Shown piece after piece: positions 30,387 to 40,077 of a DNA stretch of 64,000 nt. The stretch is from Geobacter sp. (GTDB taxonomy: Bacteria > Desulfobacterota > Desulfuromonadia > Geobacterales > Geobacteraceae), in the NCBI GenBank assembly GCA_016177775.1, contig JACOUQ010000032.1, forward strand, positions 1 to 64,000, in the 5' to 3' direction. Both the position numbers and the translations under genes were made by a program. The notes under the pieces were generated by a model. The model searched no databases. It was given only the letters and a program-made list of their open reading frames with translations, and was not told the origin of the DNA. The first letter of the stretch is position 1; the number at the start of each line of letters is the position of its first letter.

Positions 30387-30827
30387 ATGCCCCCCACTCT
30401 TCAGCGCGGCATCAGTGTCGATCCCGAATTTTACCCGCTTGCCTTTTACACGCTGGCTGCGGCGGGCCTGATCGGCCTGCTGCTTATCGCCGCGTGGTGG
30501 CTGGGCGCCAGGAGCACTAATCGCAACAAGGAACTCCCGTACGAATCTGGAGTCATCCCCACCGGCACGGCACGGCTTGCCTATCCGATACCATTCTACC
30601 TAATCGCCATCTTCTTCATCGTCTTCGACGTGGAGGCGGTCTTCATCTTCGCCTGGGCCGTTGCGTGGGAAGAGCTGGGACTTGCCGGCATGCTGCACAT
30701 AACCTTCTTCATCGTGGTGCTCCTCCTTGGACTTGTCTGGCTCTGGCTGAAGGGTGGGCTGGAGTGGGGGCCGTCGGCCGAAGGCCGCCGCAGTGCATAC
30801 AAGAAGCAGAATTATGACGGAAAGTGA
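30387..30827 (+). CDS. nuoA: NADH-quinone oxidoreductase subunit A
   Basis: 146 residues, three membrane spans. NuoA signatures [13 protein letters not shown] and [19 protein letters not shown] are present. It is a membrane-arm subunit near the quinone site of complex I. The end overlaps nuoBCD by 14 bases. The tail ([19 protein letters not shown]) is polar. Confidence 0.95.
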
Positions 30828-33207
30828 AATCCCGGACAATATACTGCTGGCCCGCCTGGACGACATGATCAACTGGGGGCGGGCAAACTCGCTCTGGCCG
30901 ATGTTCTTCGGCCTGTCGTGCTGCTTCGTGGAGATGATGACCTCCTTCACCTCCCGTTACGACATCGCCCGCTTCGGCGCCGAGGTGCTGCGCGGCACAC
31001 CGCGGGAAGCGGACGTCATGGTGATCGCCGGGACGGTCTTCAAGAAAATGGCCCCCAGCATCCTGCGCCTTTACGAGCAGATGGCCGAGCCCCGGTGGGT
31101 AATATCCATGGGGAGCTGTTCCAATTCCGGCGGCATGTACGACGTTTACAGCGTGGTGCAGGGGGTGAACCAGATCCTGCCGGTGGATGTCTACGTCCCC
31201 GGCTGTCCCCCACGGCCGGAGGCGTTCCTCCAGGGACTGATGCTCCTTCAGGAGAAGATCAGGCAGGATGAACACCCGGCCCGGCCGGTGCTGCACCTGC
31301 AAGGGGGCACCCAGGGGACCACTGCCCCGGTCCTGGTTGACGGCGCCACCAAATCCCGCGACACTCGGGGCCCCGGCATGGAAGGGATCGCCATCCGCGG
31401 CACATCGGTACAGCATCCGGAGTTCTGGATGCCCCGTTCCGACGAGATGTGGCGACCACCCGCACCGAAGCATTCCTACCCCGACTTCGGCCTTTCCGGA
31501 GAAATCGAGAATACCTTTCAGCAGCGCGTCGTGCGGGACGATGCCGCCACCGACATGCTCACCTTCCGCTGCCCGGCCGACATGGTGCAGGAGGTGCTCA
31601 AATACCTGAAGCACCGTCCCCGGGCCCCCTTCAGGCGGCTCGAGGACATTGCCTGCGTCGACGACTCCTGTCGCCGCGAACGACACCGCTTTCAGGACTT
31701 CACCCTCAATTATCACCTTCTCAATTTTGACATCCCCGGCCATATCCGGATCAAGACCGAACTCTCGGGAAAATCCCCCGAGCTCCCCAGCGTCACCACC
31801 GCATTTCCCGCGGCCGACTGGTACGAGCGGGAGGCGTTCGACATGTATGGTGTCCGTTTCAGCGGCCACCACAACCTGCGGCGCATCCTCATGCCCCCGG
31901 ACTGGGATGGGCATCCTTTGCGCAAGGGGCATCCCTTCCGCGCCACCGAGATGGCACCATACACCACGGAGGACGCACGCCGCCACCAGTCGCTCCCCGC
32001 TTCCGAGTTCTTTCCTCAACGGCTGGGGGAGAGGACGAGGGAGGGGGACCATCTCATCCTCAACCTCGGCCCCCAGCACCCCGGCACCCACGGCATCATC
32101 CGCTGCATCCTGAAGCTGAAGGGGGAGGAGATCGTCGACATCGACAGCGACATCGGCTACCACCACCGGGGGGCGGAGAAGATCGCTGAGCGGCAGCACT
32201 GGAACCAGTTCATCCCCTATACCGACCGGATCGATTACCTGGCTGGGGTGCAGAACAACCTGGCCTATGCGAACAGCGTGGAGCGCCTCTGCGGCATAGA
32301 GGTCCCGGAGCGGGCAATCTTCATCCGGGTGATGCTGGCGGAGCTGTTCCGGATCGCCAACCACCTGGTCTGGCTCGGCACCTTCGCCGCAGATGTGGGG
32401 GCCATGACCCCGGTCTTCTACACCTTCACCGACCGGGAAAAGATCTTCGACATCGTGGAGATGATCACCGGCGGCCGGATGCACCCCTCCTGGTTCCGGA
32501 TCGGCGGCGTGGCCGAGGACCTGCCGGAGGGATGGGAAGGGCCGGTGAAACATTTCCTGGAATGGTTCCCGCCCAGACTCAAGGAGTACGAAGATCTCCT
32601 GAACGGCAATCCGATCTTCGCGGCCCGCCTTAAGGGGGTCGGGGCGATCTCCCTGGATGACGCCATGGAGTGGGGAATATCCGGCCCGAACCTGCGCGCC
32701 TGCGGTTTCGCCTGGGACCTGCGCAGGAAGATCCCCTACTGTGGCTACGACCGCTTCGACTTCGAGATCGCCACGGCGGAGGGAGGCGACTGCTGGGCCA
32801 GATACCGGGTCAGGATCGAGGAGATGCGCCAGTCGCTCCGGATCGTGGAGCAGACGTTGAAAGGGATGCCGGGCGGCCGCTGGATCACCGACGATTACCG
32901 CTATGTCCTCCCCCGGAAGCGAGACACCCTGAACGACATCGAGTCCCTCATCCACCATTTCGTCAACTCAACGCGCGGCATGGCCCCGCCGGTGGGTGAG
33001 AACTACAGCGCCATCGAGGCCCCGAAAGGAGAGAACGGCTACTTCGTGGTCTCCGACGGGCTGAACGTACCGTACCGGGTCAGGATCAGGACCCCAAGCT
33101 TCCCCCACATCCAGGCCCTGCCGGTCATGAGCCGGGGGTGGCTGGTGGCGGATTTTCTGGCGATACTGGGGTCGATAGACTTTGTGCTGGCGGACCTGGA
33201 CAGGTGA
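30814..33207 (+). CDS. nuoBCD: NADH-quinone oxidoreductase, fused subunits B, C and D
   Basis: 797 residues from ATG 30814. NuoB at about 1-165 has the N2 cluster ligands C36, C37, C102 and C131 ([24 protein letters not shown]). A linker at about 165-230 is followed by NuoC (about 235-400, [36 protein letters not shown]) and NuoD (about 410-797, [23 protein letters not shown], with the C-terminal [20 protein letters not shown] in two parts). NuoCD fusions are common; the triple fusion is a rare arrangement known from Geobacter relatives. It forms the quinone-binding connecting module of complex I. Confidence 0.96.
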
Positions 33208-33216
33208 GAACCTAAA

Positions 33217-33268
33217 CCTCTGCCACAGAGACACAGAGGCACAAAGGTACACAGAGAAAACCAAAGGT
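33217..33268. repeat. CACAGAG-family repeat between nuoBCD and nuoE
   Basis: A tract of CACAGAG-like 8-bp units: CTCTGCCACAGAGACACAGA, then GGCACAAAGGTACACAGAG. It shares its core GCCACAGAG with the terminal inverted repeats of the GxxExxY element 2.2 kb downstream, but here no gene lies beside it. Confidence 0.75.
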
Positions 33269-33275
33269 TGATTTA

Positions 33276-33776
33276 ATGATTCCAGAATCTTTGAAAAAAG
33301 AGCTGCAAGCACGCGTCGCTTCCGCCATTACCAGCCGGGAGGCGGCGGTGGACGTGATGAAGGAGCTGCAACGCCACTATGGCTGGCTTACCGACGAGGC
33401 GGTCGTAGAGGCGGCGGAGCTGCTGGGACTCTCTCCATTACAGGTGGAGGAACTCGCCACCTTCTATGAGATGATATACCGCCGGCCCGTCGGGGAAAAG
33501 GTGGTCCATGTCTGCGACTCCATCTCCTGCTGGGCGATGGGGGGGGAGACGCTGCTGGCCCATGTGGCGGGGAGGCTCGGGATCAAGCCTGGAGGGAGCA
33601 CGGCGGATGGAATGTTCACACTCCTCCCCTGCGCCTGCCTGGGAATGTGCGGCGACGGGCCGGCAATGATGATCGGCGAAGCCCTGTACGGGAGGGTGAC
33701 ACCGGAGATGGTGGTGGAGATATTGAAAGCGAATCCGGGGGACGCATGCGCCCCCCCTACAACAAAGGAGGAATAA
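33276..33776 (+). CDS. nuoE: NADH-quinone oxidoreductase subunit E
   Basis: 166 residues. The thioredoxin-like [2Fe-2S] domain has its ligands in HVCDSISC and CACLGMC. The N-terminal helical part (AVDVMKELQRHYGWLTDEAV) and LSPLQVEELATFYEM are typical. The last 13 residues (PGDACAPPTTKEE) are encoded by a reversed GTAGGGG repeat, which also lies just upstream of the ribosome-binding site of the cytochrome gene that follows. Part of the NADH-oxidising arm with NuoF. Confidence 0.95.
   Translation: MIPESLKKELQARVASAITSREAAVDVMKELQRHYGWLTDEAVVEAAELLGLSPLQVEELATFYEMIYRRPVGEKVVHVCDSISCWAMGGETLLAHVAGRLGIKPGGSTADGMFTLLPCACLGMCGDGPAMMIGEALYGRVTPEMVVEILKANPGDACAPPTTKEE
33737..33760 (-). repeat. GTAGGGG-type hairpin repeat at the nuoE 3' end
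   Basis: Read on the minus strand it is GTAGGGGGGCGCATGCGTCC, with further C. It is translated in nuoE as the C-terminal tail. Confidence 0.7.
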
Positions 33777-34094
33777 ATGATGAAAAAAGTACTGATCTCG
33801 ACATTCTGCATGCTGGCTGCGACATCCTTCGCCACGACCGCCATTGCCGCCGGGAAAGGCGAGGAGCTGTTCAAGAAGCACTGCGCCGCCTGCCACCCCA
33901 ACGGCGGCAACATCGTCAACCCGAAGAAGACCCTCGCCAAAAAGGACCGGGAGGCCAACGGCTTCAAGACCGCCAAGGACCTCGTCAAGAACATGCGGAA
34001 GCCGGGACCGGGAATGACCCCGTTCGACGCCAAGACCATCCCCGACAAGGACGCCAAGGCGATTGCGGATTATGTGCTGAAGACGTTCAAGTAG
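33777..34094 (+). CDS. Monoheme c-type cytochrome within the nuo operon
   Basis: 105 residues. Signal peptide about 1-24 (ending TTAIAA). One haem c motif CAACH at the N-terminal end of the mature domain (GEELFKKHCAACHPNGGN), an axial Met candidate in PGPGMTPFD and a C-terminal helix ADYVLKTFK, as in cytochrome c553/c6-like folds. The gene starts directly after nuoE behind AAAGGAGG. It is not a complex I subunit; a periplasmic electron carrier co-expressed with complex I is the simplest reading. Confidence 0.92.
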   Translation: MMKKVLISTFCMLAATSFATTAIAAGKGEELFKKHCAACHPNGGNIVNPKKTLAKKDREANGFKTAKDLVKNMRKPGPGMTPFDAKTIPDKDAKAIADYVLKTFK

Positions 34095-34107
34095 CGGATT
34101 CCCCAAT

Positions 34108-34131
34108 GTAGGGGCGAGACATGCCTCGCCC
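34108..34131 (+). repeat. GTAGGGGC-type hairpin repeat between the cytochrome and nuoF
   Basis: GTAGGGGCGAGACATGCCTC followed by GCCC; the GGGCGAG/CTCGCCC arms form a hairpin followed by CTTTTA, so it could weaken transcription before nuoF. Confidence 0.75.
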
Positions 34132-34167
34132 AGCTTTTATCCGTGCCACCGTGGTGAAATAATCTGT

Positions 34168-35433
34168 ATGGAACAGGTCCTATTCCGACATAACAAGCCC
34201 GGCCGCTGCGTAAGCTTCGATGAGTACCGCAGCGAGGCGGGGTTCACAGCCTTGCAAAAAGCGCTGAAAGAACTCTCGCCGAACGACGTGCAGCAACTGG
34301 TGATCGACTCCAACTTGCGCGGCCGGGGGGGCGCCGGCTTTCCAACCGGCAAGAAATGGTCATTCGTGCCCCGCGATCTGCCTGGGCCGCGCTGGCTGAT
34401 CTGCAACTGCGACGAGATGGAACCGGGCACTTACAAGGACCGGGTGCTCCTTGAGGCAAACCCGTACAGCCTGGTGGAGGGGATGGTCCTCGCCGCCTAT
34501 GCTTTGGAAGTGAGGCACGCCTTCATTTTCATTCGCCGGGGCTACGAAATCGCCGCTGCCAACCTGCGCCGGGCCATCGGCGAGGCGAATGAAGCAGGCC
34601 TCCTTGGTGAAAACATCCTGGGGAGCCCGTTTTGCTGCGACATCGACGTTCACGTTTCGGCTGGCCGCTACATCTGCGGCGAGGAGACAGCGCTGATGAA
34701 CGCCCTGGAAGGGAAGCGGGCCAATCCCCGCTCCAAGCCCCCCTTCCCGGCCGTAAAAGGGCTCTGGGGCGGGCCGACGGTGGTGAACAACGTGGAGACT
34801 CTGGCCAACATCCCGGCCATCGTCGCCAATGGTTCCGAATGGTTCAAGGGGCTGGCGCGGATACCAGAGGCAGCAGGCACCAAGCTCTTCTGCGTGAGCG
34901 GCCATGTGCAGAACACCGCCTGCTTCGAGCTTCCCCTCGGCATGCCCCTTGGGGAGATAGTCGACGGCCCATGCGGCGGGATGCTGCCGGGTAAACGCTT
35001 CAAGGCGTGCATGCCTGGAGGCGCCTCCACCCCCTACCTGACTTCAGAGCATTTCGGCGTGCCGCTGGACTTCGACGCTGTGGCCAAGGCGGGGTCCCGG
35101 CTCGGCACCGGCGGCATCGTGGTGTTCGACGAAAACACCTGCATGGTGGCGGCGACCCTGAACCTGACGAAATTCTATGCCCGCGAGTCATGCGGCTGGT
35201 GTACCCCCTGCCGCGAGGGACTGCCATATGTGCAGTGGCTTCTGACCGAGATCGAAGAGGGGAGGGGCTCCACCGAGCAGATCGAGATACTCAGGGAGCA
35301 CGTGAAGTACCTGAACTACGCCTTCTGCGCCCTGGCGCCAGGAGCCATGGGCCCGGTGGACGGGCTGTTGAGGCACTTCGAGAATGAGATACGGGAGCAC
35401 ATTATTAAGAAGAAATGCCCGTTTAATAATTGA
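34168..35433 (+). CDS. nuoF: NADH-quinone oxidoreductase subunit F (NADH/FMN-binding)
   Basis: 421 residues. NADH site GRGGAGFPTGKKW, FMN region CNCDEMEPGTYKDR, SLBB-like YICGEETALMNALEG, and the N3 [4Fe-4S] ligands in ESCGWCTPCREG plus the later Cys in NYAFCALAPGA. It oxidises NADH and passes electrons through FMN. The first part is a normal length. Its stop lies three bases before the left end of the GxxExxY element. Confidence 0.96.
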   Translation: MEQVLFRHNKPGRCVSFDEYRSEAGFTALQKALKELSPNDVQQLVIDSNLRGRGGAGFPTGKKWSFVPRDLPGPRWLICNCDEMEPGTYKDRVLLEANPYSLVEGMVLAAYALEVRHAFIFIRRGYEIAAANLRRAIGEANEAGLLGENILGSPFCCDIDVHVSAGRYICGEETALMNALEGKRANPRSKPPFPAVKGLWGGPTVVNNVETLANIPAIVANGSEWFKGLARIPEAAGTKLFCVSGHVQNTACFELPLGMPLGEIVDGPCGGMLPGKRFKACMPGGASTPYLTSEHFGVPLDFDAVAKAGSRLGTGGIVVFDENTCMVAATLNLTKFYARESCGWCTPCREGLPYVQWLLTEIEEGRGSTEQIEILREHVKYLNYAFCALAPGAMGPVDGLLRHFENEIREHIIKKKCPFNN

Positions 35434-35436
35434 AGT

Positions 35437-35870
35437 TGATTTTTGCCACAGAGGCACAGAGGCCCTGAGAAATGCGAAATCTGAACAACTTGACAGAGAA
35501 GATAATTGGATGTGCGATAGAGGTTCATAGGAATTTGGGACCGGGCCTCCTTGAATCAATTTATGAAAGGGCCCTATGTCACGAATTCAATCTGAGCGGC
35601 ATGCAGTACGAAAGCCAGGTTATTGTTCCGATAACATACAAAGGCAATAATCTAGGCGACTGCAGGCTTGATCTGTTAATTGAAAATGAGATAATCGTCG
35701 AATTGAAAGCAGTTGAGAAAATGGGCCCGGTGTTCAAGGCCCAGCTATTAAGCTATCTGAAAATGACCAGGAAAACGCTGGGGTTACTGATAAATTTTAA
35801 CGTTCCTATTTTGAAAGACGGTGTAACAAGGGTTATTCTCTGAGTCTCTGTGGCTCTGTGGCAAAAATCA
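35437..35870 (+). mobile_element. 434-bp element: GxxExxY gene between CACAGAG-type terminal inverted repeats
   Basis: The left end TGATTTTTGCCACAGAG (from 35437) and the right end (reverse complement of 35870 leftwards, the same 17 bases) continue into 36-base arms that agree at 31 positions. Between them there is only one gene, whose start codon touches the left arm and whose stop lies in the right arm. It separates nuoF from nuoG. No transposase is present and no target duplication is evident. Confidence 0.75.
35472..35843 (+). CDS. GxxExxY family protein (PD-(D/E)XK-like)
   Basis: 123 residues. The defining motif is G25-LL-E28-SI-Y31 in GPGLLESIYERAL. A nuclease-like core follows: D67 (CRLDLLI), E77-x-K79 (IIVELKAVE) and Q91 (KAQLLSYLK). 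Family members are small, often multicopy and have no firm function. The gene is clearly A+T-richer than the nuo genes around it, has no good Shine-Dalgarno sequence and is confined between the inverted repeats, all signs of insertion. Nuclease activity is inferred from the core pattern only. Confidence 0.88.
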   Translation: MRNLNNLTEKIIGCAIEVHRNLGPGLLESIYERALCHEFNLSGMQYESQVIVPITYKGNNLGDCRLDLLIENEIIVELKAVEKMGPVFKAQLLSYLKMTRKTLGLLINFNVPILKDGVTRVIL

Positions 35871-37802
35871 ATGCCTAAATTAATCGTCGACAACATCGAA
35901 ATCGAAGTTCCGCAAGGCACTAACGTCCTTGAGGCGGCGCGGCAGGTGGGGTTCGTCATCCCCCACTTCTGCTACCACCCGGCCCTGGGAAGCGTCGGGG
36001 CCTGCCGCCTGTGCGCCATGAAGTTCATCGATGGGCCGGTGAAGGGGATCCAGATGTCGTGCATGATCCCGGCCCAGGACGGCATGGTGGTCTCCACAAC
36101 CGATACAGACGCGGCCCGGATGCGGCAATTGGTCATCGAGTGGCTCATGACCAACCACCCCCACGACTGCCCGGTCTGCGACGAGGGGGGGGAATGCCTG
36201 CTCCAGGACTACACCATTGCCGGCGGGCACGGCATCCGGAACTTCAGAGGGAAGAAGCGGACCTTCATCCCCCAGTTTCTCGGCCCCCACATAGAGCACG
36301 AGATGAACCGCTGCATAGAGTGCTACCGCTGCGTCCGCTTCTACCAGGAATACGCCGGGGGGAGCGACTTCGGGGTAATGGGGAGCGCCCGGCGGGTCTA
36401 CTTCGGGAGGTTCGAGGAGGGGAAGCTGGAGTCCCCCTTCTCCGGGAATCTGGTGGACATCTGCCCCACCGGCGTCTTCACCGACAAGACCGCCCGCTTC
36501 CGGGCCCGCTACTGGGACTATGAGATGGCCCCCTCGGTCTGCCCCCACTGCTCGCTGGGGTGCAACACCGTCCCAGCCGCCCGCTACCGGGAGCTTCTGA
36601 AGATAATGGCAAGGCGGAACGATGCGGTGAACGGCTGGTTCATCTGCGACCGGGGGAGGTTCTCCAACAAGGCGGTGAACGACCCGACGCGCCCCCGTTT
36701 TCCGCTAGTGGACGGAAAAGAGACGACTTGGGACGAGGCGCTGGACGCGATTCTTATGCGCGTTGAAGAGTTGTCCGAGATCCACGGCGAAGGGTGCCTG
36801 GCCGTGGTGGGATCACCCCGCCTCTCCCTGGAGGGGAATGTACTTTTACCGCAGCTTGCGGAAGTGCTGGGGGCGAGCTTTCTCTGCCACTTCACCGACA
36901 GGGAGGAGGAAGAAAGGACGGTCGCCGTTGTTTCACATCTCACTAGGAAAAACGCCGCATCCATGGCCGACGTGCGGGGAGCAGACTGCATCGTTGTCGC
37001 GGATTGCGACCTCCTGGACGAGGGGCCGATGATGGCCTTGGCGGTCCGGCAGGCGTGGCGCAAGGGAGCGCCGGTCTTCCTGGCGGGAGAGAACTCCCCT
37101 TTGGATCAGGCACGTCAGATCGGCATCGAGCCGGTAAAGATCGGCTCCGTTGATGAAGTGCCGCTCGCCTCGTTCAAAAGCCCTGTGGTCATCTGCGGGA
37201 CGAAGCACAACTCCCCCGCAGCCATTGAGAGGCTCTTCCGGTGCGAAACCAGTATCGCCTGCCTCCTCCCAGGCCCAAACGCCTTTGGCGCAGCCCTTCT
37301 GGCAAGGGAGCACGAAACTGTCTCGCTAACCGAGGCACTGGCCACCGGCAAGGTAAAGGGGATCATCGCCGTCGAGGCGGACATCCCGGTGGAGATGCTG
37401 GAGGGAATGGCGCTGCTGGCTGCCATCGACTGGCACCCGACCGACGCGGTGCAGCAGGCCGACGTCATCTTCCCTTCACTCGCCTGGCAGGAGATGGACG
37501 GCACCTTCATCAACAACGAAGGTCGGGCGCAGCGGTTCAAGCGGACGATGAAGCCGGGCCTCCCCATCAGGGGTTTACCGGAGCGCTATCATGCTTCAGC
37601 CGACAAGCCGGCGCCGTTCCATCCTCCGAGAATGCACAGCAAGATGGCGCCGGGAGGGGAAGCGCGGCCGGCTTGGCGGGTCATGGCGGAGTTGATCGAG
37701 AGGTTCGGCGGGGAGGGAGTCGATGCGGCGCTCAGCGGTAAATGGGAGATGCTTCGAGATATTTACCCCGAGAGTGAGGGAATAAGGGTTTTCGATTTAT
37801 GA
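35871..37802 (+). CDS. nuoG: NADH-quinone oxidoreductase subunit G
   Basis: 643 residues from ATG 35871, where the family sequence starts (MPKLIVDNIEIEVPQGTNVL); a GTG at 35850 lies inside the element end. Clusters: N1b [2Fe-2S] (HFCYHPALGSVGACRLC), N5 with its His ligand (NHPHDCPVCDEGGEC), N4 (CIECYRCVRF, DICPTG) and the N7 site (SVCPHCSLGC with the later FICDRG). The molybdopterin-like domain is short. The ATG has no Shine-Dalgarno because the element ends at the base before it. Confidence 0.95.
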   Translation: MPKLIVDNIEIEVPQGTNVLEAARQVGFVIPHFCYHPALGSVGACRLCAMKFIDGPVKGIQMSCMIPAQDGMVVSTTDTDAARMRQLVIEWLMTNHPHDCPVCDEGGECLLQDYTIAGGHGIRNFRGKKRTFIPQFLGPHIEHEMNRCIECYRCVRFYQEYAGGSDFGVMGSARRVYFGRFEEGKLESPFSGNLVDICPTGVFTDKTARFRARYWDYEMAPSVCPHCSLGCNTVPAARYRELLKIMARRNDAVNGWFICDRGRFSNKAVNDPTRPRFPLVDGKETTWDEALDAILMRVEELSEIHGEGCLAVVGSPRLSLEGNVLLPQLAEVLGASFLCHFTDREEEERTVAVVSHLTRKNAASMADVRGADCIVVADCDLLDEGPMMALAVRQAWRKGAPVFLAGENSPLDQARQIGIEPVKIGSVDEVPLASFKSPVVICGTKHNSPAAIERLFRCETSIACLLPGPNAFGAALLAREHETVSLTEALATGKVKGIIAVEADIPVEMLEGMALLAAIDWHPTDAVQQADVIFPSLAWQEMDGTFINNEGRAQRFKRTMKPGLPIRGLPERYHASADKPAPFHPPRMHSKMAPGGEARPAWRVMAELIERFGGEGVDAALSGKWEMLRDIYPESEGIRVFDL

Positions 37803-37878: not shown

Positions 37879-40077
37879 ATGACCCCCCTACTCTTTGTAC
37901 TCTTTTTTGTTTCAGGCTTCTGCGCCCTTCTTTATCAGGTCGTTTGGGTGCGCCTGGCCTTTGCATCGTTCGGCATTATCACTCCGGTTATTTCTGTCGT
38001 AATTTCAGTATTCATGTTGGGCTTGGCGCTCGGGTCATGGGCAGGCGGCAAGCTGATCTCTTTGCTGGCCAGGCGGACAAATCTTTCGGCGATATTCTTC
38101 TACGCATGTGCGGAAGCCGTCATCGGCATCGGAGCTTTTGTTGTTCCAGCTCTTCTGGTGTTGGGCGAAACAATCCTCCTTCACATGGGAGAGGCAAACT
38201 CCTTCTTCTACCTCCTTTCGTCGGCCATCGCAATTACGCTTGCGCTTTTCCCCTGGACTGTTTTTATGGGAGCTACATTCCCATTGGTGATGGCCTATGT
38301 TAAGGAATGCAATCCCGCGGACACGCAAAGTTTCAGTTTCCTCTATCTTGCCAATGTCTTCGGCGCCATGTTTGGCACTTTGCTTACAGCCATGGTATTC
38401 GTAGAGCTATTGGGTTTCCGCCACACGCTCTGGGTTGCAGGCATTGCGAATTTCTCGATTGCCGGTTTGAGCGTTGCTATTGGCCTGCGATCCGCCAACA
38501 AAAGATGCCATTCTGAAAAAAACAACGATGCAAGCCCCGCAACCATCCCCACCGGCAAGAATCCCTTCATCAGCGTCATCCTCTTCACGACCGGCTTTTG
38601 CTCCTTGGCCATGGAGGTTGTCTGGACGCGGGCCTTTACGCCGGTATTGGGGACGCAGGTTTATTCCTTCGCCGAGCTCCTCTTTGTTTACCTGCTCTGC
38701 ACCTGGTTTGGTTCCCACGTATACCGCCGCGACCTGAAGAACGCCCGCGTCCGACCAGTTGCCCATTTGCTCACTGTCCTTGCGGTGGCAGCATTTCTCC
38801 CGATACTGCTCAACGATCCACACTTCTCTCTTGATGCCGATCTGCGCATTTTCCTGGTATTGGCAAGCATCTCGCCGTTTTGCGCCGCCCTCGGTTACCT
38901 CACGCCGCATTTGATCGACGAATGTGCAGCCGGTGACCCCCGCCTCGCCGGAAAGGCCTATGCGCTCAATGTGCTCGGATGCATCCTCGGGCCGCTGCTG
39001 TCTTCCTATGTCTTATTGCCACTTCTCGGCGCCAATCTCACGCTGGTAGCCCTTGGGGCACCTTTTTTAGTCTTTTGTTTCGTGTGCTACAAGGACATCT
39101 CCCGTCAATTGAGATTCGCCGCTGGTCCAGCAGCGGGAATTTTTCTGCTTGGCTCGTTTTTCGTAGATTTCGAAAATCCTGACGGAGGACCCACAAAAAG
39201 CTATGAGATCCGGAGAGACCATACTGCAACGGTCATTTCTGCCGGGAAGGGATTACAGAAAAAACTTTATGTGAACGGCATAAGCATAACCCATCTGACC
39301 TCCATCACCAAGTACATGGCCCATCTGCCCCTGGCTTTCCATCAAGGCCGACCCGAATCTGGCTTAGTCATCTGCTTCGGGATGGGCACGAGTTACCGCT
39401 CGCTTCTGAGCTGGGGTGTCCAGGCTACATCCGTGGAACTTGTGCCAAGCGTGAAACAGGCATTCCCTTACTATCACGCCAATGCCGAAGCGCTCTTAAA
39501 GCATCCCAGGGGACGGATCGTGATCGATGATGGCCGGCGATATCTCAACCGAACGATTGAATCGTTCGACGTGATAATTGTTGATCCGCCGCCACCGATT
39601 GAAGCAGCAGGATCAAGCCTGTTATATTCGAAGCAATTTCATGAAGCCGTCAGACGACATTTAAAACCAGGCGGCATCTTCCAGACATGGTTTCCAGGAG
39701 GTGAAACGAGCATTCTGCAGGCTATCACGAGATCCCTCGTCGAGGTTTTCCCTTATGTAAAAATTTATACTTCTGTCGATGGGTGGGGGGTGCATCTCCT
39801 TGCCTCGATGTCGCCACTCGAAACACCGACACCAGAGGAAATGGTCAGTCGCTTACCGGTGCAAGCCAAAAAGGACCTGCTGGAATGGAGTCACAAGGGC
39901 TTGAACGCCGACATAAGCAGTATCCTTGCTAACGAAATACCTGTTGCAGAATTGTTAAGCTTGGACCGTTCAATCGTTATTACAGATGACCGGCCTTACA
40001 ACGAGTACTTCTTGCTGCGTCGAGCGAGCAACAGCGCTAGCGCGCCAGCTGCACAAGGAAAGCGAAAGTCGTATTAA
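37879..40077 (+). CDS. Membrane-anchored spermidine synthase-like protein
   Basis: 732 residues. The first about 420 residues contain twelve or so hydrophobic spans (FVSGFCALLYQVVWVRLAF, repeated as FTTGFCSLAMEVVWTRAF). The C-terminal part is a SpeE-like Rossmann methyltransferase fold: GLVICFGMGTSYRSLLSWG, VELVPSVKQAF, IVIDDGRRYLNRT, FDVIIVDPPPPIEAAGSSLL and YSKQFHEAVRRHLKPGG. The substrate is unknown. Base composition is visibly lower in G+C than the flanking nuo genes. It ends three bases before nuoH and is not a complex I gene, so it was probably inserted. Confidence 0.88.
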   Translation: MTPLLFVLFFVSGFCALLYQVVWVRLAFASFGIITPVISVVISVFMLGLALGSWAGGKLISLLARRTNLSAIFFYACAEAVIGIGAFVVPALLVLGETILLHMGEANSFFYLLSSAIAITLALFPWTVFMGATFPLVMAYVKECNPADTQSFSFLYLANVFGAMFGTLLTAMVFVELLGFRHTLWVAGIANFSIAGLSVAIGLRSANKRCHSEKNNDASPATIPTGKNPFISVILFTTGFCSLAMEVVWTRAFTPVLGTQVYSFAELLFVYLLCTWFGSHVYRRDLKNARVRPVAHLLTVLAVAAFLPILLNDPHFSLDADLRIFLVLASISPFCAALGYLTPHLIDECAAGDPRLAGKAYALNVLGCILGPLLSSYVLLPLLGANLTLVALGAPFLVFCFVCYKDISRQLRFAAGPAAGIFLLGSFFVDFENPDGGPTKSYEIRRDHTATVISAGKGLQKKLYVNGISITHLTSITKYMAHLPLAFHQGRPESGLVICFGMGTSYRSLLSWGVQATSVELVPSVKQAFPYYHANAEALLKHPRGRIVIDDGRRYLNRTIESFDVIIVDPPPPIEAAGSSLLYSKQFHEAVRRHLKPGGIFQTWFPGGETSILQAITRSLVEVFPYVKIYTSVDGWGVHLLASMSPLETPTPEEMVSRLPVQAKKDLLEWSHKGLNADISSILANEIPVAELLSLDRSIVITDDRPYNEYFLLRRASNSASAPAAQGKRKSY

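Follow-up and report, generated by a model that had tools for sequence, protein, structure and literature searches.

The junction of nuoF and nuoG in this DNA raises the question of why a nuclease-like gene should lie there between two inverted repeats. The DNA analyzed, called the window here, is a stretch of 64,000 nucleotides from Geobacter sp. (contig JACOUQ010000032.1, positions 1 to 64,000), and the element is a 434-bp unit (35437-35870) in which a gene of the GxxExxY family is enclosed by two arms made of short tandem repeats. We propose, with a probability of roughly 0.6, that this unit represents the gene-carrying form within a two-part system consisting of a nuclease that recognizes the repeated unit and of gene-less repeat doublets that are kept or copied in trans.

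The left arm (35436-35471, plus strand) and the inverted right arm (35836-35871, minus strand) are complementary at 32 of 36 positions, with no mismatch in the first 18. In the one-base-shorter register used by an earlier, sequence-only reading of this DNA, 31 of 36 positions pair, as that reading had claimed. When the whole window was scanned for 36-base arms lying 100-700 bases apart, the best matches listed (at least 27 positions pairing) were all registers of this one pair. The left arm carries two CACAGAG units (35447-35453 and 35455-35461) and a decayed third unit, CCCTGAG (35463-35469); on the minus strand, the right arm carries CACAGAG at 35854-35860 and 35846-35852 and CTCAGAG at 35838-35844. 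The gene (35472-35843, plus strand, 123 amino acids) starts directly after the left arm and ends within the right arm, where the CTCAGAG unit overlaps its TGA (35841-35843). Its G+C content is 0.417, compared with 0.62-0.63 in nuoF and nuoG. This close fit of gene and arms, and the A+T-richness of the gene, had both been read correctly from the letters. Because the nuoG ATG occupies 35871-35873, the 434-bp unit ends immediately 5' of it. It is plausible that the insertion cost nuoG its ribosome-binding site, as the sequence-only reading had put it; an in-frame GTG is present at 35850, within the right arm. Nothing in Rfam matched across 33000-36200. Two minus-strand open reading frames (ORFs; 32968-33312 and 35753-35959) are spurious read-through of arms, giving peptides such as LCASVSLWQ, and read-through of this kind probably accounts for some false hypothetical proteins in genome annotations.

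The protein clearly belongs to GxxExxY, a family of unknown function: it matched TIGR04256 with 148 bits (cut-off 35, E=1.3e-43) and PF13366 PDDEXK_3 with 143 bits (cut-off 22, E=6.7e-42). PF13366 was its sole family match, and no known transposase domain (DDE, HUH, serine or tyrosine) was found in it. Residues E28, Y31, D67, K79 and Y95 were invariant across 59 sequences, and E77 and Q91 were conserved in at least 90%. The core reads D-x9-ExK followed by QxxxY (E28, D67, E77-x-K79 and Q91-x3-Y95), which is the PD-(D/E)XK motif of RecB/Cas4 type; QxxxY is known from RecB/Cas4 nucleases. These matches bear out the family name and the PD-(D/E)XK-like core proposed from the sequence alone. A sequence search of the PDB found no relative. 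With a predicted structure model (predicted local distance difference test score, pLDDT, of 96), the best Foldseek matches in the PDB were SSO0001 (Cas4-like), lambda exonuclease and LHK-Exo, with probabilities of 0.99-1.0 and a template modeling score (TM-score) of about 0.5. The protein is best read as a predicted minimal nuclease of the RecB/Cas4/lambda-exonuclease PD-(D/E)XK type, which shares its core and its nearest solved folds with those enzymes but stands alone at 123 amino acids, with a TM-score of only about 0.5. GxxExxY matched nothing in phage records, gave one distant match in viral contigs and gave eight matches in plasmids, all distant (<60% identity).

The arrangement of repeat, gene and repeat recurs with matching arms across phyla. 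We fetched 80 relatives and took their taxa from the genome titles, which named Deltaproteobacteria, Acidobacteria, Planctomycetes, Cyanobacteria, Deferribacteres, Acetothermia, Gammaproteobacteria, Chloroflexi, Bacteroidota, Firmicutes (Thermincola), Nitrospinia, Myxococcales, Verrucomicrobia, Neomarinimicrobiota, Armatimonadetes and Cloacimonadota; the GxxExxY loci span at least 15 phyla. Each arm consists of about three tandem 7-base units of the form CRCNNAG. Among the first 82 loci, tandem CRCNNAG was present on the left (plus strand) in 73, on the right (minus strand) in 69 and on both sides in 65, and control windows 1.1-1.3 kb away had it in only 6 (plus) and 1 (minus) of 146. The addition of Geobacterales loci gave 184 distinct loci. 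A flanking inverted repeat, called at an inverted-repeat score of at least 13, was found at 79% of these, compared with 5% of mispaired flanks (left and right taken from different loci) and 0.2% of shuffles. A divergent subfamily has the same layout in other letters (CACGAAT, CACGGAT, CGCAGAT, CACGAAA, CAGGGAT and others), and a second GxxExxY gene in the host genome (L001) has arms of the CACAAAG type. Separately, loci L098 and L203 (genome G043, C3:169505-172251) comprise three tandem GxxExxY genes that are 99-100% identical, with CACGAAA-type arms.

The letters of the unit vary among loci, and they vary together on the two sides of the gene. For the three variable letters at 88 loci, left-right agreement was 0.654 within a locus and 0.108 between loci, and the maximum in 5000 permutations was 0.216. 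Loci whose proteins are 70-80% identical agreed at only 0.25; the units of both arms thus change in concert. This covariation fits the earlier suggestion that the nuclease may act on its own ends. The letters also follow the protein: on the protein tree, arm class required 6 changes (shuffled mean 23.9, minimum 20) and the fine unit code 30 (shuffled 52.8, minimum 48). At one site, between genes read from their translations as methylmalonyl-CoA mutase and epimerase, some genomes have CACGGAG arms and another has CACAGAG arms.

Most copies of the repeats enclose no gene. In the host genome, the triple-unit pattern occurred 26 times (control pattern 0), largely as gene-less inverted pairs, some of which enclose another doublet. 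Among 247 Desulfobacterota genomes, triple-unit arms averaged 12.2 in the 91 carriers of PF13366 and 0.30 in the 156 non-carriers (Mann-Whitney p=1.6e-20), and at least 10 copies were present in 32 of the 91 carriers and in none of the 156 non-carriers. In 58 relatives, the abundance of CACGGAG (p=2.5e-5) and of CGCAAAG (p=0.0015) also tracked a resident gene whose arms have the matching unit. Slow turnover of doublets, by insertion or loss, was seen between species: many doublets differ between the more distant species of one genus, and two clear cases from genome G034 are missing from the orthologous junction of three species. One of these two is a nested pair of different subfamilies.

Taken together, these data suggest how the two-part system would work. 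GxxExxY would recognize short tandem units (CACAGAG in the window), about three in each of two inverted arms. The resident nuclease would most likely act in trans, at a low rate, to maintain and copy the doublets, which are about 75-260 bp long, gene-less, intergenic and dispersed. It would probably cut a doublet whose arms had been extruded or had become single-stranded, and repair by the host would then place a copy elsewhere. The gene copy would mostly stay put and be inherited vertically, as are the genes of the tyrosine transposases associated with repetitive extragenic palindromic (REP) sequences, or RAYTs. The binding of units, the cleavage and the copying step are what we infer here. 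A wider proposal, which we regard as evenly balanced, is that this is a widespread undescribed class of repeat system built around a RecB/Cas4-type nuclease instead of a transposase. The nuclease would read a short variable DNA word that recurs in the arms around its gene and in the dispersed gene-less doublets, and it would co-evolve with the six copies of the word. Under such co-evolution, natural variants would give a protein-DNA recognition code, and the matched unit-protein pairs over the gathered loci make recognition directly testable.

Several results weigh against the two-part system. The code-matched association in the 58 relatives failed for CACAGAG (p=0.34), which is the unit of the window element itself. 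The reverse of CACAGAG occurs within CACAGAGA arrays and so does not give a valid control pattern for this unit. One genome (G052) has 48 CACAGAG two-unit matches or pairs in long arrays, and a GxxExxY gene was not found in it. The p-values for association are optimistic because the tested genomes are related. Two species at 94.6% identity had all mapped doublets in 400 kb in common, so that no movement was caught, and a target-site duplication sought at 49 doublets was not found above the mispaired control. Finally, about 20% of the 184 loci have no detectable arms.

The history of the nuoF-nuoG site bears on the first alternative, that the gene unit moves whole as an autonomous element like an insertion sequence, the arms being its terminal inverted repeats (TIRs) and the doublets its deletion derivatives, or miniature inverted-repeat transposable elements (MITEs). 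With nuoF (34168-35433, plus strand) and nuoG from its ATG (35871-37802, plus strand) as the upstream and downstream flanks, the GxxExxY element was found in the window genome and in G001, G004 and G009, a decayed one in G007 and a gene-less insert with GxxExxY-type arms in G008. Other palindromic repeats occupy the junction in G024 (CACGAATG-type, L170) and G002 (CCAAAT-type, L185), and in G025, G041, G022, G015, G012 and G044 it is a short gap of 4-47 bp. The empty junctions that the sequence-only reading had asked for therefore exist in several relatives. That reading had named two findings that would count against it: an element fixed at this junction in all relatives, and GxxExxY genes elsewhere lacking repeats. 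Neither holds outright, because the unit recurs across phyla and several junctions are empty; the second is true of the minority of loci with no clear repeat, and the large majority are flanked.

An autonomous element would account for terminal arms that directly touch the gene, for a few near-identical proteins at unrelated sites (L074/L078/L080, and L015 versus L029 in one genome) and for one site at which two species carry elements of subfamily A but others carry elements of subfamily B. In the protein tree, the copies of the window, G001 and G009 form one group (support 97) and the G004 copy groups with a copy elsewhere (99), which suggests a separate insertion; however, a clade uniting the four nuoF-nuoG copies was compatible with an approximately unbiased (AU) test, which did not reject it (p=0.27). 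Against whole-unit movement, close relatives (at least 85% protein identity) have the gene at the same site in 45 of 54 testable pairs, the ratio of nonsynonymous to synonymous substitution (dN/dS) is 0.01-0.23 in the 11 same-site pairs where it was computable, recent copies per genome are few and no target-site duplication was found above the control. We consider this alternative unlikely: most gene copies have been passed on at an unchanged site, with purifying selection acting on them. The freely hopping, self-contained cassette of the sequence-only reading is not supported, as gene-bearing copies mostly keep the same site across species and genera; it is the gene-less inverted doublets that are dispersed.

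A second alternative, which we rate slightly lower, is that a global regulator binds the paired tandem repeats, as has been proposed for repeats of Geobacter metallireducens, with GxxExxY or another protein acting through them on neighboring genes. The location of elements at operon junctions agrees with such a role, but the nuclease residues are conserved, the doublets nest, turn over between species and adjoin unrelated genes, and unit and subfamily differ among elements at one site. It is also improbable that the repeats are spread by a different mobilizing enzyme, such as a RAYT or another of the Y1 transposases, and that GxxExxY genes merely reside in some of them. Y1 transposases are present in 81 of the 91 GxxExxY genomes, and the CACAGAG arrays of G052 could be taken in the same sense. 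As a cause of the repeats, however, Y1/HUH transposases were rejected: genomes with Y1 only showed no excess (0.38 versus 0.18 per genome, p=0.35), the GxxExxY effect on repeat count was strong within Y1 carriers (p=1.5e-16), and the arm letters follow the GxxExxY protein tree. Least probable is a role in defense or genome maintenance, with the units serving the nuclease as self tags or Chi-like control sites rather than as mobile ends. The RecB/Cas4-like motif and fold, the dispersed tandem octamer-like units and the strong purifying selection might be read in this way, but no PADLOC-DB defense model matched GxxExxY, and the units form inverted doublets with turnover, not evenly spread single sites.

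Elsewhere in the window, a solitary four-unit arm (33224-33256, plus strand; CACAGAG A CACAGAG G CACAAAG GTA CACAGAG) lies directly 5' of the nuoE start codon, with no partner arm found nearby. NuoB, NuoC and NuoD are apparently fused in one 817-amino-acid ORF (30754-33207). Between nuoE and nuoF lies a gene (33777-34094) for a 105-amino-acid cytochrome c-like protein that has a CxxCH heme-binding motif and, apparently, a signal peptide. A 732-amino-acid ORF (37879-40077) between nuoG and nuoH resembles, by eye, a membrane protein of the spermidine synthase-like kind.

If the two-part system is correct, a gene family of unknown function found in at least 15 phyla would gain a substrate and a testable role, and there would be an explanation for common repeats between genes, which are easily mistaken for small proteins or regulator sites. 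Repeats of this kind have been described before: in 2009, multicopy repeats of Geobacter metallireducens were interpreted as paired sites to which global regulators bind (Aklujkar 2009, PMC2700814). In the accessible part of that report, they are opposite-strand pairs of tandem 8-9-mers at variable distance, with a class 2 unit that complements CACGGAG, but they are neither tied to GxxExxY nor treated as mobile. Like MITEs such as Chunjie of Geobacter uraniireducens, our doublets are short and gene-less, have inverted ends and lie inside operons; by its published description (PMC10969869), Chunjie is set apart by direct repeats, conserved TIRs and a copy length of 178-235 bp, the doublets here being variable in length and no duplication having been found at them. 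Of the features of an insertion sequence or MITE, the terminal inverted repeats are present, and a known transposase domain and a target-site duplication were not found. A link of GxxExxY to flanking repeats was not found in the literature covered, a provisional result as most subscription journals and all preprints fall outside that coverage.

The closest parallel is the system of RAYTs and REPINs, which are REP doublets. In both systems, inverted doublets are dispersed between genes, the enzyme gene is flanked by the same repeats and pairs with them in a code-specific manner, the repeats are enriched where the enzyme gene is present (here 12.2 versus 0.30), the enzyme is inherited vertically, and copies are solitary as well as clustered (PMC8049555, PMC3116915). 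The RAYT enzyme is an HUH Y1 transposase, whereas GxxExxY is PD-(D/E)XK nuclease-like, and the REP arm is a short imperfect palindrome, whereas the GxxExxY arm is made of about three tandem 7-base direct repeats. Because enzyme and arm structure differ, the GxxExxY system would work like REPIN-RAYT without being a member of it. These comparisons suggest that GxxExxY and its repeats are an undescribed nuclease-plus-repeat system and, if so, that the REPIN-RAYT way of life arose also with an unrelated enzyme.
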